The translations under genes were made by a program, and so were the position numbers. Below are positions 48,825 through 57,088 of a stretch of 64,000 nt of DNA, piece after piece. The stretch's first letter is position 1. Each line of letters begins with the position of its first letter. The stretch is from positions 1 to 64,000 of the forward strand of contig JANXSF010000102.1 in NCBI GenBank assembly GCA_025352795.1. The letters are read 5' to 3'. The notes beneath the pieces are model-generated. The model did no database searches, was not told where the DNA came from, and saw nothing but the letters and a program-made list of their open reading frames with translations. This DNA is from Acidobacteriota bacterium. Its GTDB lineage: Bacteria; Acidobacteriota; Terriglobia; Bryobacterales; Bryobacteraceae.

Positions 48825-49493
48825 ATGGCAAATCGCTACGAACATAAAGACAGCCCGTATTCTAGTCACAGCCACTTACTGGGTCTCTTACCTGATGTGG
48901 GGAAAGGTAAGCGATTGCTGGATGTTGGATGTTGGGATGGGTCAGTAAGCCAGTTGTACTTGGAGCGAGGATTTACTGTGGTTGGGATTGAGCGCACACG
49001 CCACGCAAACCTTCCACAACAACTGCAATTGGTGGAGGCTGATTTGAACATCGGGCTGCCTCCAATACAAGGAACGTTTGAATATATTGTCTGTGCCGAT
49101 GTCCTGGAGCACGTTCTGAATCCAGGCGAGATACTAAAGCAACTTAGACCCTTCGTTAAGCCTGATGGCAGATTACTCGCGTCATTACCGAACAGTGGAC
49201 ACTGGTTTTTTAGGCTGATGGTTTTGATTGGCAGGTTCCCCAAACATGATAACGGACTGTTTGACCGAACCCATTTGCACTTCTTTACCTGGGACGGTTG
49301 GGAAGAACTATTTCGTCATTCGGGCTATACTATCGAAAGCGTTCAGCCGACCGCAATTCCGGTGGCGAGGGCCTTGCCTGGTCGGAACAGATGGCTGACC
49401 GTTGGAATTGGAGAACGTCTGAACTTTTTGCTGGGAAAGCTTTGGTTACGCTTTTTTGCGTATCAGTTTGTGATTCAGGCAAAGGTAATTTAG
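48825..49493 (+). CDS. Class I SAM-dependent methyltransferase
   Basis: 222 residues. Motif I is LLDVGCWDGSVSQLYLERG; VVGIERTRHANLPQ and VCADVLEHVLNPGEILKQLRP complete a Methyltransf_11/23-type fold. The segment SLPNSGHWFFRLMVLIGRFPKHDNGLFDRTHLHFFTW is typical of methyltransferases found with glycosyltransferases. It sits directly before a GT2 gene (9-base gap), so the substrate is probably a glycan or lipid-linked intermediate, by inference. Confidence 0.87.
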   Translation: MANRYEHKDSPYSSHSHLLGLLPDVGKGKRLLDVGCWDGSVSQLYLERGFTVVGIERTRHANLPQQLQLVEADLNIGLPPIQGTFEYIVCADVLEHVLNPGEILKQLRPFVKPDGRLLASLPNSGHWFFRLMVLIGRFPKHDNGLFDRTHLHFFTWDGWEELFRHSGYTIESVQPTAIPVARALPGRNRWLTVGIGERLNFLLGKLWLRFFAYQFVIQAKVI

Positions 49494-49502
49494 GGAATCG
49501 GA

Positions 49503-50294
49503 ATGCATACAAAGGCAAAAGTTGTGGTGGTGATGCCCGCATATAATGCGGCCAAAACGCTGCGTATGACCTATACCGAACTTCCCCACGAAGTAGTTGA
49601 TCTGGTGATTTTAGTGGATGACGGAAGCAAAGATGAAACCATTCAAATTGCCCGTGAATTGGGTTTGGAAATTTTTGTTCATGACCGAAACTACGGTTAT
49701 GGAGCCAACCAAAAAACTTGCTATCGGGAAGCGTTGAAGGCTGGTGCCGACATCATTGTGATGGTCCACCCGGACTATCAATATGACCCCACTCTGTTGC
49801 CGGAGATTATCCTCCCAATACAGGAAGGCAAAGCCGATGTTGTGCTTGGTTCGCGATTGCTGGCCGGGAATGTGATGGCGCAAGGCATGCCCTGGTGGAA
49901 ATATATTTCAAATCGGTTTCTAACCTGGGTTGAGAATGTGACGTTTGGATTGCACTTGGCGGAGTATCATACGGGCTACCGGGCTTATCGGCGCGAGGCG
50001 CTGGAAGCAGTCAATGTGGACATGAATTCCGACAACTTTATTTTTGATCAGGAAATTGTCGCGCAATTTGTGAATGCTGGTATGCGCATTGCTGAAGTTC
50101 CTGTACCCACCAGATATTTTGCGCAGGCATCCTCAGCAAGCTTTCTGCAAAGCACTCGTTACGGACTTTCCATTCTTGCGGTAACCACTCGATATTGGCT
50201 GCATGTGAACAAATTCTGGCGTCAACGAAAATTTGTGAGCCTTAAAGGCCGTTATGTTGCAGAGAACGCCAAAGCTGCACGGGCAAAGGGTTAG
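49503..50294 (+). CDS. GT2 glycosyltransferase (DPM1-like, soluble)
   Basis: 263 residues. GT-A motifs: VVVVMPAYNAAKTL, LVDDGSKDET, and MVHPDYQYDPTLLPE, where the metal-binding DxD is replaced by HPDY, a variant known among DPM-like enzymes; LGSRLLAGN and EYHTGYRAYRREAL follow. It likely transfers a sugar from a nucleotide donor to a lipid carrier. Downstream are two large membrane proteins that may flip or use that lipid-linked sugar. AGGGAATCGGA precedes the ATG. Confidence 0.87.
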   Translation: MHTKAKVVVVMPAYNAAKTLRMTYTELPHEVVDLVILVDDGSKDETIQIARELGLEIFVHDRNYGYGANQKTCYREALKAGADIIVMVHPDYQYDPTLLPEIILPIQEGKADVVLGSRLLAGNVMAQGMPWWKYISNRFLTWVENVTFGLHLAEYHTGYRAYRREALEAVNVDMNSDNFIFDQEIVAQFVNAGMRIAEVPVPTRYFAQASSASFLQSTRYGLSILAVTTRYWLHVNKFWRQRKFVSLKGRYVAENAKAARAKG

Positions 50295-50297
50295 GAC

Positions 50298-52280
50298 TTG
50301 TCACGAGCCCGAACGATCCTACTGGAATGTGTAGTTGTTTTTGCATTAGCGTCGCTGTTGATCGGTCCTAAGTTTCGATTGAAGTACATGCAAAACTGGG
50401 GATCGATTGATTCCACTTTCATCGCTGATGGCCGTATGTTGGCGGAAAACTGGCCCCATCCACAATGGCAACCCCTTTGGTATGGCGGCACCCGATTCGA
50501 TTATGTATACCCTCCGGGATTGCGATACGCTACCGCCGGTTTGACAAAACTGCTGCCGATTATCCCGGCACGGGCCTATCATCTTTACACCGCCATCATG
50601 TTCGCATTCGGTATTGCCGGAATATTTCTGCTGGTGAGATTGGGTTCCGGATCACGCATCGCAGCCTATTTGGCAGCATTTGCCACCGCTTCTATATCGC
50701 CAGCATTTCTATTCCTAAAACATATTCGGGAAGATTCGTACAAGGTGTTTCCGCAACGGTTAGGAGCCTTGGTCCGCTATGGCGAAGGGCCGCATATGTC
50801 CTCCTTGGCGATCCTTGGCCCAACGTTAATCGCCAGTTATTTTGCGTTGCAAGGTGGCAGACCAGTTGCCTTTGGCTTGGCGGCATTGGGGGCCGCCTGG
50901 GCAGTGAGCAATAACTTCTACGGGGCAACGGCACTGGTCATTTTCTTTCCTATATTGTGTTGGGCAATTTTTATCACCACGCGCGATTGGATGGTTTGGG
51001 TAAGGGCTGCTGGTATTGGTTTGCTGGCCTATGGACTCACTGCAGTTTGGTTGACGCCGTCGTTTCTGAAGATCACTGCCCGCAACTTAAAATACGTCGC
51101 GCAGCCGATGACAAACGGGTCCCCTCCCTTGGCGATTGCCTGTCTGTTGATAGTTTGTTTGTTGAGTTGGTGGTGGGCCAAGAACGATTTTTCCAAAGCT
51201 TACGCCGTATTCGTATGGGGAAGCATGGCGATGTTTTCGCTGAATGTTTTAGGGCACTATTATTGGGATTTCCGGATTAGTGGTGAACCTGACCGCCTGG
51301 TTCCAGAACTGGACTTGGTGATCATACTGGGCGTTTTGGAACTGTTCCGGCGCATGTGGACGGCCTCTTCCATCACTTGGTTGAAGCCTGCGTTGACATT
51401 ACTGACGATTGCTGTGACGATCTATTTTGGACGATTTTTCCTGCGACATCCCTGGAAATATTACATCAGGGATGACTATACACAGCGCCAGGAATTTGTA
51501 ATTTCCAAATGGGTGCATGAAAACATTCCGGGCCAGAAATGTCTAGTCACCGGCACGGTGCGATTTTGGTGGAATGCCTGGTATTCCGAAGCTCAGGTTG
51601 GTGGTGGGAGTGAACAGGGTTTGGAAAATCCGAACAACATAGTGATGCAATGGGAAACGCGGATGGGCAACAATGCTGAGCGTGACCTGTTGTGGTATCA
51701 AGCGTTTGCTACGGATTGTGTGATTGTGCATTCGCCTGGATCAACGCAACAATATATAGATTTTGGGTATCCCCAGAAGTATGCTGGCAAACTGCCGGTG
51801 ATCAAGGAATTTACGCCCTTTGACACAATTTACCAAGTGCCACGACGCTATGTTAGCTTGGCCCGCGTTGTGGATCGCACAAAATTTTCGCAACTCACTG
51901 CGGTTCCTCAAGAAGCCAACGACAAAGGGCTGGCGGCCTACGCGGCGATGTTGGAAACCGGCCCTGATCGACCGGTGCAAACGCAATGGGTCACGACGGA
52001 TCATTTAAGGATTGAAGCCCCGGTGGAAGCCAATGAATCGGTGGTAGCCATGGTGACGTATGACGAAGGCTGGCACGCCTATTCAGGGGGCAAGGCACTT
52101 CCGATTCAGGCTGATGTATTGGGTCAAATGCGGATCGACGCTTTGCCCGGCAAACAGACCATAGATTTAATATTTGAAACTCCCATGGAGAATCGTGTGG
52201 GCGGCTGGATCACAATTACTGCGCTGGCAATGTCTTTACTTCTGCTGATTTCGCCGCTGTTTGGAAAAAAGCGAATCTAG
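50298..52280 (+). CDS. Large polytopic membrane protein, YfhO/PTPS-related family (paralogue 1)
   Basis: 660 residues from a TTG 3 bases after the GT2 gene. About ten to twelve membrane helices fill residues 10-390; a C-terminal soluble part (about 400-630) precedes a last helix. Early motif WQPLWYGGTRFDYVYPPGLRYATAGL and the C-terminal DEGWHAYSGGKALPIQADVLGQ resemble the YfhO and '6-pyruvoyl-tetrahydropterin synthase-related' membrane families, which are linked to lipid-carrier sugars in cell-surface glycosylation. It shares R-Y-G-E-G-P-H (160-166), an EPDR..PELDL segment and a VGG..E.GL segment with the next gene. The reaction is unknown. Confidence 0.72.
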   Translation: MSRARTILLECVVVFALASLLIGPKFRLKYMQNWGSIDSTFIADGRMLAENWPHPQWQPLWYGGTRFDYVYPPGLRYATAGLTKLLPIIPARAYHLYTAIMFAFGIAGIFLLVRLGSGSRIAAYLAAFATASISPAFLFLKHIREDSYKVFPQRLGALVRYGEGPHMSSLAILGPTLIASYFALQGGRPVAFGLAALGAAWAVSNNFYGATALVIFFPILCWAIFITTRDWMVWVRAAGIGLLAYGLTAVWLTPSFLKITARNLKYVAQPMTNGSPPLAIACLLIVCLLSWWWAKNDFSKAYAVFVWGSMAMFSLNVLGHYYWDFRISGEPDRLVPELDLVIILGVLELFRRMWTASSITWLKPALTLLTIAVTIYFGRFFLRHPWKYYIRDDYTQRQEFVISKWVHENIPGQKCLVTGTVRFWWNAWYSEAQVGGGSEQGLENPNNIVMQWETRMGNNAERDLLWYQAFATDCVIVHSPGSTQQYIDFGYPQKYAGKLPVIKEFTPFDTIYQVPRRYVSLARVVDRTKFSQLTAVPQEANDKGLAAYAAMLETGPDRPVQTQWVTTDHLRIEAPVEANESVVAMVTYDEGWHAYSGGKALPIQADVLGQMRIDALPGKQTIDLIFETPMENRVGGWITITALAMSLLLLISPLFGKKRI

Positions 52281-52282
52281 CA

Positions 52283-54253
52283 GTGCGACTCAATCTGTTT
52301 CTATCATTTCTGATTACCGTCGCCAACATTGCCCTGAACTTCCCCATGTTTGTACCGGGAATTTCTCCCTACCGCGGGTCCATTGAACCCGGTTACGTGT
52401 TCATGGCGCGGTTTGTTAGCGAACACCCCAACCCTTGGGCTTGGAATCCAATGCAATATTGCGGCTTACCAACGCAGTTCATTTATCTGCCCATCATTCC
52501 ATACGTGACAGCGATAGGAATTTGGGTATTGCCGTGGTTTGAAGCGGCTCAAATCTATCGTGTGTTTGTCTATCTGGCCGCGTGCCTGGGACCTGCCGCC
52601 GCATTTCTATTCGTACGTACTTTTACTGGAACCAGACCCAACGCCGTATTTGCAGCACTGCTGGTTTCCATTCTTTCTCCGTTGTACGAAATGATTGGCA
52701 CCATAGACCGCGACCGTGGATTCATGCAGATTCCTTGGCGTCTGCAGGTGATGGTTAAATACGGCGAAGGTCCGCACACCGTGGGATTGCTGTTCTTACT
52801 GGCATCCCTTTGCGTGTCCTGGCAAGCTTCCAGGCAACGCGACTTCCCTTCCCTTTTTATAGCTGCTTTGCTGATGGCTCTTACCGTTCTAACCAATTGG
52901 GTGGCCGGTTTAGCGTTGGCAATTTGTACGGTATTGCTGATCACCACCATGTGGGATGTTGCCGATTTTCAACCACGAAGAATCCTACAGGCAGGCGTGT
53001 TGGGCTACTTGCTTTCCTGCTTTTGGCTGACACCAACTTTTGTCTATACAATGGCTTTCAACTGGCCGCAGGACGCGTTTGGATACAAAATGCAGACATC
53101 AGAACGTATAATGCTCTGCCTGTGGTTTGGGGGGCTCATCCTTCTACGACTGATGTTCATCAAGTTCCCTAAACAGCGATACTATTGCTTTGTCCTTTCC
53201 TGCCTGTTTGCTTTCGGATTGATGGTGACCAGTTTCTATGCTTACAACATAAACACCATTCCCGAATCACGCCGTTATGCTTTGGAGTTTGAGCTGTTTC
53301 TGATTTTGGCGTTTGTGGAAACAGTAAGGGCGGCAATTTATTCCGGCAGCTGGTGGCTGCGATTTCCTATAGTTTCGGCAATGCTGTTGACGTTACTTTA
53401 CCTGACCCCAAACACCTGGACATTTCTTCACAACCGCTGGGAAAAGTGGACCCCGTCAGCAAAAGAAGAAACAGTTGAATTCGATATGGCCAGACGGTTG
53501 GCCGCTATTCCGCAACCGGGGCGCGTGTTCGTTAGCGGTGGAACCCGTTTTTATTTGAATTCCTGGTTTGACGAACCACAAGTGGGCGGGGTGTTTGAGA
53601 CTGGCCTGCGCAACCGCATGCCAGTGGACATGGTCTATCAAATTCGGACCGACCTGCTTAGCAAACCTGGTGAAGAAGCACACGATACAATTTTGCAGTT
53701 ACGTGCAATGGGGGTGGACCTGGCGGTGATTCACGGCCCGAAATCGACGGAGTATTATCGCGATTTCAAATTTCCGAGTAAGCTGGATGGGCTTTTGAAG
53801 GCTACGCCAATTGGCAATAATGATTTCATTTACGAATTGCCCAGTTCTCCGTTGGCAGTGCTGGTGAAGGATTGGGAACTGCCCGCAGAAACGCCGCGGC
53901 AAGGACGGATGCGAATTCTGGAACCATTCGTGAAGGCTATGGATGACGCATCGCGCCCCAAACTGGCGTGGACCTGGGTCGATAATAACCATCTGCGGAT
54001 TACTGGCGATTTTCCGGAAGGCTATAAATTAGCAGTGTCAGTCAATTACGATTCGGGTTGGACAGCAGTGCAAGGTGTTGGCAAACTGCTGGTCAGCGCA
54101 AACCAAATTGGATTCATTACCCTGCAACCTATGGCACAGCAGCATGGCGAAATCGATTTATACTACAGTGCAGGAGCAGAGCCCAAACTTTTTGCAATGC
54201 TTAGTCTTGCTGTTTGGATGGGCTGTTTCGTACATCTTCGTAAACCTTCATGA
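52283..54253 (+). CDS. Large polytopic membrane protein, YfhO/PTPS-related family (paralogue 2)
   Basis: 656 residues from a GTG start 2 bases after paralogue 1. It has the same plan: an N-terminal helix, WNPMQYCGLPTQFIYLPIIPYVTA, K-Y-G-E-G-P-H at 159-165, many helices, PESRRYALEFEL, and a soluble C-terminal part with RFYLNSWFDEPQVGGVFETGL and YDSGWTAVQG. Corresponding motifs sit at nearly identical positions in paralogue 1, so this is an ancient tandem duplication with strong divergence. The two may form a heterodimer handling a lipid-linked sugar, by inference. Overlaps the YihY gene by 4 bases. Confidence 0.72.
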   Translation: MRLNLFLSFLITVANIALNFPMFVPGISPYRGSIEPGYVFMARFVSEHPNPWAWNPMQYCGLPTQFIYLPIIPYVTAIGIWVLPWFEAAQIYRVFVYLAACLGPAAAFLFVRTFTGTRPNAVFAALLVSILSPLYEMIGTIDRDRGFMQIPWRLQVMVKYGEGPHTVGLLFLLASLCVSWQASRQRDFPSLFIAALLMALTVLTNWVAGLALAICTVLLITTMWDVADFQPRRILQAGVLGYLLSCFWLTPTFVYTMAFNWPQDAFGYKMQTSERIMLCLWFGGLILLRLMFIKFPKQRYYCFVLSCLFAFGLMVTSFYAYNINTIPESRRYALEFELFLILAFVETVRAAIYSGSWWLRFPIVSAMLLTLLYLTPNTWTFLHNRWEKWTPSAKEETVEFDMARRLAAIPQPGRVFVSGGTRFYLNSWFDEPQVGGVFETGLRNRMPVDMVYQIRTDLLSKPGEEAHDTILQLRAMGVDLAVIHGPKSTEYYRDFKFPSKLDGLLKATPIGNNDFIYELPSSPLAVLVKDWELPAETPRQGRMRILEPFVKAMDDASRPKLAWTWVDNNHLRITGDFPEGYKLAVSVNYDSGWTAVQGVGKLLVSANQIGFITLQPMAQQHGEIDLYYSAGAEPKLFAMLSLAVWMGCFVHLRKPS

Positions 54254-55104
54254 AAGTGTTTTTTCTACTTCTGCAACGTGCCTTGATCGCCACTCAAAAT
54301 GATGGATGCCTGGCCACAGCCAAAGCAGCGGCATATTCAGGACTGCTTGGCTTGTTTCCAGTACTCACTTCCATCACCGCAATTCTTGTGCAGGCCAATG
54401 CTACCGCAGTGTCGGCACGTTTAGCTCAATTCCTGTTCGACGTGGTACCGCCTGGGACTGAGGAACTGATTGTGCAGTCGGTAACCGTTCGTGGTGCACG
54501 GCCTACGCTAGTTTTGGTGATCGCAGCACTTCTGTCCATTTGGGGAGCATCCGGTTGGATGTCCAGCCTGATGGAAGGATTTGAAGCTGCGTATAAATTA
54601 CCGTCGGGCAGGTCTATGCTAAACCAGCGATTCGTGGCTGTCATGCTGGTGCTGGGCACACTATTGCCGGCCATTTTCGCATCGACACTTGTCCTGTTCG
54701 GGGATCATACAGAGCGCGAATTGTTCCGTTGGATAGGGGTCCTTGCCAGCGATGCGCAGTTGATAGGTTGGATGCTTCTGATCAGCACAATCATCCGATA
54801 TTTCGTAGAACTGGCCGCTGTGGTGTTGGTGATGGCGGTGATGTATTACTTTGGACCGAATCGGAAACAATCGTGGAATGATGTGTTACCAGGTGCTCTT
54901 CTGGCAACTACTCTGTGGCTACTCACTACCCAAGTCTTCGCCTGGTACGTGCGCAATTTGGCGCAGTACAACTTGCTCTACGGATCGATTGGTGGTGTGA
55001 TCGCCATGCTGGTTTGGATCTATCTTCTTTCGGCAATTGCATTGCTCGGCTGCGAATTTAACGCGGAACGGGAAAAGCTTTTGAAGATTCACTCGGTAGA
55101 CTAG
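54250..55104 (+). CDS. YihY/BrkB-family integral membrane protein
   Basis: 284 residues with about six membrane helices. Family features: [23 protein letters not shown] near the N-terminus, [24 protein letters not shown] in the middle and [34 protein letters not shown] at the end. The family was once annotated as ribonuclease BN in error; its function is unsettled, with transport proposed. ATGA overlap with the preceding gene; uvrB starts 4 bases after its stop. Confidence 0.92.
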
Positions 55105-55108
55105 AAGT

Positions 55109-57088
55109 ATGGGATTTCAGTTAGGCATTCCTTACACGCCCAAGGGCGATCAGGAACAGGCAATTGCACAATTATCGCGGGGCCTTACCACTGGTGAAAA
55201 GCATCAGGTGTTGTTGGGCGTTACCGGATCGGGCAAAACTTTTACGATGGCGAAAATCATTGAAGGCACCGGGCGGCCTGCTTTGATATTGGCCCACAAC
55301 AAGACTTTGGCAGCACAATTGTATGGAGAGTTTCGGACATTCTTTCCTCACAATGCGGTGGAGTATTTTGTAAGTTACTACGATTACTACCAGCCGGAAG
55401 CCTACATGCCTTCCAGCGATACCTACATTGAAAAAGAATCGACAGTTAACGATGAGCTGGATAAGCTTCGCCTATCGGCCACCCGTTCTTTGTTTGAACG
55501 GCGCGACGTAATCATCATCTCTTCGGTGAGTTGCATCTACGGCCTGGGTTCGCCCGAAGCATACTATGGCATGCTGTTGCCGCTGGACAAGGGCAAGACC
55601 ATGGCCCGTCAGGACATTGTCGCAAAGCTGGTGGAAATTCTTTACGAGCGTAACGACGTTGATTTTAAACGCGGCACGTTTCGCGTCCGGGGCGACGTGA
55701 TTGAAGTGTTTCCAACCTACGACGACTTCGCTTATCGCATTGAATTGTGGGGAGACGAAATTGAAAGTTTGTCACAATTCGATTCCCTGACGGGACGCGT
55801 TCGGCAAACTTTTCAGCGCCTGACCATCTACCCGAAGACGCATTATGTGCTGACGCCGGTTCAAAAAGAAAAAGCGTTAGTTTCAATTGACGAAGAGTTG
55901 GAGTGGTGGCTGAAAGAACTGCAAGGCGGTGGGAAGTTGGTGGAGGCGCAAAGGCTGCAACAGCGCACCCGCTTTGATTTGGAAATGATCAAGCAGATTG
56001 GATACTGCCATGGCATTGAAAACTATTCACGACATTTTTCAGGCAGACTGCCGGGAGAAGCTCCACCGACGCTGCTGGATTATTTACCCCCAGATAGCCT
56101 GATCTTTTTGGATGAAAGTCACCAAACGGTTCCACAGATTCGCGGCATGTATGGTGGGGATCGTTCCCGCAAAGAAAATCTTGTAGGCTTTGGTTTTCGT
56201 CTACCTAGCGCACTGGATAATCGTCCCCTGACATTCGAAGAATTTGAGAATCGAGTCCACCAGGTGATTTATGTTTCTGCCACACCTGGCCCCTATGAGC
56301 TGGGTCAAACCAAAGGCGAGTTTGTGGAACAGGTGATCCGGCCCACAGGGTTAGTTGATCCGCCAGTGGAGATCCGGCCAGTCAAAGGCCAAGTGGACGA
56401 TTTGTTGGGCGAAATTCGTAAACGAACGCTGCTCAATGAAAGGGTGTTGATCACCACATTGACCAAGCGTATGTCTGAAGATTTAGCAGATTACTACACG
56501 GAAGTAGGCGTAAAATGCCGTTATTTGCATTCCGAAGTGAGTACGTTGGACAGGGTGAAGATCCTCAGAGATTTACGCAAGGGCGTGTTTGATGCGTTGA
56601 TTGGCGTCAACCTTCTGCGCGAAGGATTAGATTTGCCGGAAGTGTCTTTGGTGGCAATTCTGGACGCCGATAAAGAAGGCTTCTTGCGTTCTACTGGGGC
56701 GTTAATTCAAACCATTGGCCGCGCCGCCCGCAACGTGAATGGCCGTGCCATACTTTACGGCGATGTGTTGACAGACAGCATGAAACGGGCGATAGACGAA
56801 ACCAACCGACGTCGTACCATTCAAGAAGAATACAACCACGCAAACGGGATAACGCCGCAAACAATCATCAAGGCAATTGACCAGAATCTAATTTCCATTG
56901 CGGACATGGATTACGTGACCATTCCCCTTGAAGAGGAAGTTGCCTGGGTGAACCTGAACCGCGATCAAAAGGAAAAACTGATTGTGGATTACGAAGATAA
57001 AATGCGCGAGTCTGCTCGTAACTTTGAGTTTGAAAAGGCTGGTGAGTATCGCGATAAAGCCAAGGAACTCAAATTAGCCATGCTTTGA
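55109..57088 (+). CDS. uvrB: Excinuclease ABC subunit B
   Basis: 659 residues. Walker A GVTGSGKT (37-44), the beta-hairpin region [22 protein letters not shown], the helicase motifs [16 protein letters not shown] and [30 protein letters not shown], and a C-terminal UVR domain ([20 protein letters not shown]) are all present. It verifies DNA damage and hands it to UvrC in nucleotide excision repair. Full length for the family. It is the last gene of the rightward run. Confidence 0.97.

Follow-up and report, generated by a model that had tools for sequence, protein, structure and literature searches.

Paired and sometimes fused predicted GT-C membrane glycosyltransferases in an acidobacterial order

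Why would a bacterium encode two large, related membrane proteins side by side? The question is raised by genes A and B in a 64,000-nucleotide stretch of a genome from the acidobacterial order Bryobacterales (GenBank assembly GCA_025352795.1, contig JANXSF010000102.1, positions 1 to 64,000, forward strand), referred to here as the window. A sequence-only reading had described the two as a tandem pair of diverged YfhO/PTPS-related proteins that looked like a two-component membrane glycosyltransferase or flippase. Re-reading the open reading frames confirmed the tandem: the genes share a strand, are separated by 2 bases and have 660 and 656 codons. We propose, with a probability of about 0.72, that A and B form the paired GT-C step of a transmembrane glycosylation system: A would be the core and B the partner protomer of a putative dimer, and a neighboring glycosyltransferase of family 2 (GT2) would feed this step. 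The two genes are:

50298-52280, + strand: protein A, 660 amino acids (aa), start codon TTG; predicted GT-C membrane glycosyltransferase with a C-terminal beta domain; first-external-loop acid D38 (S-I-D), D146, YGEGPH at 161-166, E330/R333/E337.
52283-54253, + strand: protein B, 656 aa, start codon GTG; paralogue of A and predicted GT-C membrane glycosyltransferase; first-external-loop acid E35 (S-I-E), D144, YGEGPH at 160-165, E328/R331/E335.

We compared the two proteins over their full lengths. The motifs that had been singled out are present: R-YGEGPH at residues 160-166 of A and K-YGEGPH at 159-165 of B, and a V-G-G-x-x-E-x-G-L segment (VGGGSEQGL in A, VGGVFETGL in B) at 434-442 in both. 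A segment given as P-E/D-x-x-R also exists in both proteins, but its precise form is E-x-x-R-x-x-x-E (E330-P-D-R333 in A, E328-S-R-R331 in B). The description of A and B as otherwise dissimilar does not hold. They align end to end by BLASTP with 28% identity over 627 columns (E 8e-55), and the alignment of their family profiles extends over 639 columns (E 1.2e-98). A and B are full-length paralogues, so the common motifs are part of one family's conserved core. Comparison with the nearest relative gave pN 0.16 and pS 0.77 for B, and pN 0.24 and pS 0.80 for the last 192 codons of A, with dS saturated; judged by pN against pS, both proteins are constrained. A third paralogue, 26-28% identical to A and to B, lies elsewhere in the same genome (C71:11335-13263), with genes for a carboxyltransferase and an ABC ATPase on either side. 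We found no GT2 match in the 20 kb examined around it.

AlphaFold2 models of A and B had mean pLDDT values of 92.4 and 93.0 (input alignments of 49 and 47 sequences). Foldseek searches with these models returned best E values of 9.3e-8 for A and 2.6e-7 for B. The matches at E<=0.001, 20 for A and 21 for B, were entries for oligosaccharyltransferase (OST/STT3), PglB, DPY19, AftD and AftA; two of them are translocon entries, in which we take the matching chain to be STT3A. VIA comparisons aligned A with CeDPY19 (Z 18.6, 3.7 Å, 453 residues) and B with human OST-A (Z 19.6, 4.8 Å, 450 residues), with Pmt4, Pmt1-Pmt2, ArnT, ALG and Emb enzymes among the lower-ranked matches. The fold matches span about 320-570 residues at 8-15% sequence identity. 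In these predicted models, the polytopic helical core of each protein matches solved GT-C enzymes. Most VIA match ranges stop near residue 520 and barely cover the C-terminal beta domain, which weakly resembles a dextranase domain (VIA Z 7.1, 79 residues). A PDB sequence search found no match for A, B or the A-family profile. The B-family profile returned two weak, unrelated-looking matches (E 0.045 and 0.35), which we set aside; only the fold comparison was informative.

The assignment to YfhO and PTPS_related proved partly right. The resemblance is real, and relatives match both families, but it is weak and neither window protein reaches a Pfam cut-off. YfhO (PF09586) scored 22.2 bits against A, over residues 557-630 only and below its curated cut-off of 28.5, and did not match B; PTPS_related (PF10131) matched neither window protein. 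Among the aligned proteins described below, YfhO matched 40/49 A, 14/47 B and 2/15 C proteins at E<=0.1 (best 4.9e-10), and PTPS_related matched 15/49, 23/47 and 7/15 (best 3.8e-8). PTPS_related is listed as a member of the GT-C clan (PMC7801869).

We examined how the family is distributed in 200 genomes drawn from the order of the host. Relatives were found in at least 144 of the 200 with B as the query and at least 145 with A. Match scores split into separate groups: A orthologues, B orthologues and others, which we call C. Alignments were built from the copy in the window or its genome plus 48/62 A, 46/57 B and 14/14 C near-full-length segments. G-E-G-P-H is invariant in all 49 aligned A proteins, and all 47 B and all 15 C proteins keep its E and H. 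A tree of the 111 proteins placed each set to one side of a branch, with SH-aLRT values of 100 (A), 100 (B) and 98 (C); the tree was made by a quick method with a midpoint root, and its labels were preassigned by best BLAST match. Loci were taken as the best 78 of 137 confirmed matches to a query led by B, a choice that favors B-bearing places. All but one of the 78 carry acidobacterial labels (Bryobacterales, Solibacter, Acidobacteria and similar), the exception being labeled Acidimicrobiia. A wider sample of 396 genomes from across the phylum, in which up to three candidates were scored for each genome, gave near-full-length matches, among those listed, only in the window's genome and in G003 of the same family. 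The remaining matches listed for it were short fragments that mainly covered the C-terminal beta domain; one came from G006, also of the same family. The family thus looks close to order-specific within this sample. Some loci carry longer arrays: A-A-B (L068, L071), C-A-B (L076, L088, L091, L105) and C-A-A-B (L116). At six loci a copy is split over two frames (A in L078 and L116; B in L112, L118, L126 and L127), which may reflect assembly frameshifts or decaying genes.

The two genes usually travel together. Among the matches listed for the 200 genomes, A was present in 78 and B in 57; 53 genomes had both, 25 only A, 4 only B and 118 neither (Fisher p 3e-24, uncorrected for relatedness). The orthogroup cut was set by eye at an identity gap (>=35% versus <=32%), and fragments (e.g., in G139 and G184) were counted as present. 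Of the 53 genomes with both, 47 have A immediately upstream of B on the same strand, with the aligned ends at most 134 bases apart in 43 of these. The remaining six include G161, where the tail of A stands directly before B at a contig end (L065), G050 and G153, where B is at a contig end, and G073, G114 and G118, where A and B are on different contigs. Counted by locus, A is present before B at 54 of the 59 loci with more than 600 bases of sequence there. The worry that the paralogues might usually occur singly does not apply to B, and A is single in about a third of its genomes.

A and B also occur in one open frame at four loci: L104 (1349 aa), L109 (1321 aa), L111 (1390 aa) and L117 (1070 aa, cut at both ends). 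L104 and L111 are sisters with similar junctions, and L109 is placed elsewhere in the tree; the fusion therefore arose at least twice. The motif in the B half of L109 reads YGERLH. A separate fusion, of two C-type modules, occupies a 1333-codon frame on the - strand at L169 (G023); its halves carry YGDSPH and YGDAAY instead of YGEGPH, and the second retains S-I-E. The "two-component" label thus stands for a conserved and sometimes fused pair, but not for an obligatory one, given the genomes in which A occurs alone.

GT-C enzymes carry a catalytic acid in the first external loop. In both models, S-I-E/D opens the helix that follows the first membrane helix, presenting D38 in A and E35 in B, and the predicted fold would place this loop on the outer side, with the acid where GT-C enzymes have theirs. 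The position is acidic in 47/49 aligned A proteins (39 E, 8 D, 2 Q), 42/47 B proteins (the others 3 Ala, 1 Gly and 1 missing) and 14/15 C proteins. The alignments omit 14/62 A and 11/57 B near-full-length segments, and the omitted B proteins of L070, L087, L093 and L113 lack the acid, which makes the aligned B figure too favorable. The fuller count, over all 78 loci, is 62/64 readable A and 53/63 readable B proteins (L097 and L109 judged by eye; L090 and L120 unreadable). According to an excerpt on CeDPY19, Glu71 is read as the catalytic base, and changing it to Asp costs 20% of activity and to Gln abolishes it (PMC10154233). The tolerance of Asp fits the occurrence of either E or D at the loop position of A and B. 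The arginine of E-x-x-R, which precedes a later helix, is identical in all 111 aligned proteins (49 A, 47 B, 15 C). By analogy, R333 of A and R331 of B may correspond to the arginine in front of TM10 that touches the lipid phosphate in OST-type enzymes, as an excerpt of PMC7801869 describes it. YGEGPH overlaps the start of a helix beginning at residue 164 (A) or 163 (B) in the models, and the Asp ahead of it is kept in 47/47 B (D144) and 45/49 A proteins (D146).

The neighborhood suggests where the sugar donor would come from. The methyltransferase and GT2 genes upstream and the YihY-family gene downstream are as the sequence-only reading had named them:

from 47832, + strand: CehA/McbA-like metallohydrolase gene, upstream of the methyltransferase.
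48825-49493, + strand: S-adenosylmethionine-dependent methyltransferase (Methyltransf_23, MetW-like), upstream of GT2.
49503-50294, + strand: GT2, 263 aa, resembling dolichyl/polyprenyl-phosphate sugar synthases (AglJ, PpgS, DPMS, ArnC).
54250-55104, + strand: YihY/BrkB-family membrane protein, overlapping the end of B by 4 bases.
from 55109, + strand: gene after YihY, presumably UvrB.

The AglJ, PpgS and dolichyl-phosphate hexose transferase models match GT2 with scores under their curated NCBIfam cut-offs. The best solved-structure match of GT2 is a dolichol-phosphate-mannose synthase (E 2.7e-11), followed by chondroitin synthase and ArnC, and no membrane helices were seen in it by eye. We consider it the probable donor maker. 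We counted neighbors at 41 loci that have both A and B, at least 1 kb of sequence before them and at least 2.5 kb after. GT2 stands directly before the array at 25, all 25 also with the methyltransferase, and YihY follows within 3.5 kb at 22. GT2 and YihY occur together at 20 loci, GT2 alone at 5, YihY alone at 2 and neither at 14; by this split, the pair persists while its neighbors change. A scan of eight neighboring proteins from seven loci without GT2 found no common gene. Where present, GT2 is 69-82% identical to the window copy, compared with mostly 38-50% for A and B, as would be seen if the donor stayed the same while the transfer step varied. Together, the predicted fold, the conserved external acid and arginine, and an adjacent GT2 like the polyprenyl-phosphate-sugar synthases support the description of the pair as a membrane glycosyltransferase.

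The YihY-UvrB segment 3' of the pair (window 54250-57088) recurs at many relatives' loci. The one locus labeled Acidimicrobiia (Actinomycetota; L128, VFZE01000029.1, 6516-15136) bears a methyltransferase-GT2-A-B-YihY-UvrB cassette whose A and B group within the acidobacterial tree; the genome bin is probably mislabeled. In two genomes of one genus, YihY is separated from B (or from A) by a gene for a flavin adenine dinucleotide-dependent oxidoreductase (DAO; L106:11887-13203 and L151:9760-11067); as called, the L106 gene overlaps the end of B.

These features are consistent with the following model. GT2 would load a sugar onto polyprenyl phosphate on the cytoplasmic side, a flippase would turn the lipid-linked sugar over to the outer side, and A together with B would transfer the sugar to an envelope acceptor on the outer face of the membrane. 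D38 of A and E35 of B would act as catalytic bases, and R333 and R331 would hold the lipid phosphate. A would be the core subunit and B the partner protomer of a pseudo-symmetric dimer, as in Pmt1-Pmt2 and EmbA-EmbB. B may add a second active site or acceptor specificity, with its acid lost in some lineages.

Several observations weigh against this model. A occurs without B in 25/78 genomes among the matches listed; in some of these, which are drafts, A sits at the end of a contig (G001, G079, G127). The clearest case is G020, an assembly of 4 contigs and 98% completeness, with the order methyltransferase-GT2-A-oxidoreductase-YihY-UvrB: B is cleanly absent from the cassette, and the near-complete genome has no B at E<=1e-62. 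In its congener G018, B is in place (L106, methyltransferase-GT2-A-B-oxidoreductase-YihY-UvrB), and the two oxidoreductases are 74% identical. YihY and UvrB directly follow A in G113. Conversely, 5 of the 59 loci with sequence before B have no A there; in the B-only genome G122, one contig end carries the tail of A (L093). Tree comparison adds little. A and B trees correlate at r 0.92, with a partial value of 0.86 given GT2 (24 loci), but r 0.97 drops to a partial value of 0.56 given UvrB (14 loci). These are correlation values only, and after the UvrB control they suggest little beyond shared descent. The external acid is missing from 10/63 readable B proteins, which have Ala, Gly or Ser instead, and from 2/64 A proteins. 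GT2 and YihY are both missing at the 14 of 41 loci noted above. A GtrA-domain search of the genome found no GtrA-type flippase in the cassette (the Wzx type was not searched); the single GtrA-domain gene lies elsewhere and shares its 406-codon frame with a GT2 match. Finally, the roles given to residues of A and B rest on position and conservation.

What, then, does each partner contribute? Because A is found without B in about a third of its genomes, once by clean in-place absence, A looks like the core and B like the partner. The acid counts agree. Of six A-only stretches, the loop was read in five (L150-L154), and all five keep the external acid. At 51 loci both loops are readable (one of these pairs, L097, has a distant A copy): the acid is absent from B at 7, from A at 2 and from both at none. 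Where A has Gln, B has Glu, and A keeps its acid at all seven loci where B has lost it. Three further loci have an acid-less B and an unreadable A (L093, L117, L126). This reciprocal loss is suggestive, but proves little alone, since independence predicts only 0.27 double losses in 51 pairs. The sequences suggest that A is the core enzyme and that B is a partner that may turn non-catalytic in the lineages without its acid.

Taken further, this last point gives a reading in which one of the pair, mostly B, is a non-catalytic protomer that binds the acceptor or regulates A. The ten acid-less B proteins fit it, as does the placement of some of them: the genus of G020, itself lacking B at E<=1e-62, includes G018 and three other genomes in which Ala replaces the external Glu of B (L106, L113, L115, L122). 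It has likewise been speculated in a review that the smaller GT-C systems might depend on a second protein to bind the acceptor (PMC8035078). The acid is nevertheless kept in 53 of the 63 readable B proteins, including that of the window, and as a general account of the pair we regard this reading as possible but doubtful. We take more seriously, though still at less than even odds, the idea that A and B are separate GT-C enzymes of one pathway that add successive sugars or serve different acceptors and form no complex, so that gene order and fusion reflect shared pathway and co-expression. Most aligned A and B proteins do keep both acid and arginine, A exists alone, and the C-A-B and A-A-B arrays resemble serial duplication. 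However, in-frame fusions in at least two lineages and the presence of A in 53 of the 57 B-bearing genomes among the matches listed suit a physical partnership, and one clade retains a B that has lost the acid with nearly all other conserved residues intact.

The other half of the sequence-only proposal, that the pair is a flippase or transporter for a lipid-linked sugar, is very improbable. A and B are polytopic membrane proteins beside a probable donor-making GT2, and the pathway needs a flippase that was not identified in the cassette. The Foldseek matches at E<=0.001, however, are GT-C glycosyltransferases, and among the best 50 matches for each protein, folds of transporters came up only with E >0.1 and TM-scores of roughly 0.1-0.2. 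We rejected the flippase reading on this predicted fold.

We return to A and B as a paired GT-C step. The fold and the type of pathway are already known; what is new is a paired, sometimes fused GT-C step in this order. A literature search returned no recognizable paper on the A/B proteins or on this envelope glycosylation route in Acidobacteria. More tentatively, the order may have evolved a dedicated A-B heterodimeric GT-C enzyme whose two protomers have merged into one polypeptide in at least two lineages and could each dispense with the catalytic acid provided that the other retains it. Such an enzyme would be the bacterial equivalent of Pmt1-Pmt2, belong to the YfhO/PTPS_related branch and decorate a polymer or protein of the envelope. 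The combination of fusions, single-subunit lineages and acid loss in one partner makes the question of why GT-C enzymes pair testable in one bacterial order. For proteins that Pfam labels simply as YfhO-like or PTPS_related, the A/B family offers a candidate function, and it directs attention to a route of envelope glycosylation in Acidobacteria.

We compared the A-B system to known GT-C systems. To our knowledge, acidobacteria have no teichoic acids. YfhO/CsbB/GtcA-type systems likewise set a GT2-type polyprenyl-phosphate glycosyltransferase beside a polytopic GT-C enzyme, as described in an excerpt of PMC8035078, and the C-terminal beta domain of A/B gives the weak match to the YfhO profile. 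They differ in that two GT-C paralogues stand here in place of one, the cassette lacks a GtrA-type flippase, and the GT2 shows no membrane helices by eye. OST/STT3, DPY19, PMT (Pmt1-Pmt2, Pmt4), AftD, ArnT and Emb enzymes share with A and B the predicted fold and the acid after the first helix, but the C-terminal domain of A/B differs from theirs, except in part from that of AftD. Heterodimeric GT-C enzymes offer a parallel to the arrangement proposed here. EmbA and EmbB form a dimer (PMC7341804), and Pmt enzymes such as Pmt1-Pmt2 form dimers as well. The pairing of A with B and their natural fusions would fit a counterpart of such dimers.

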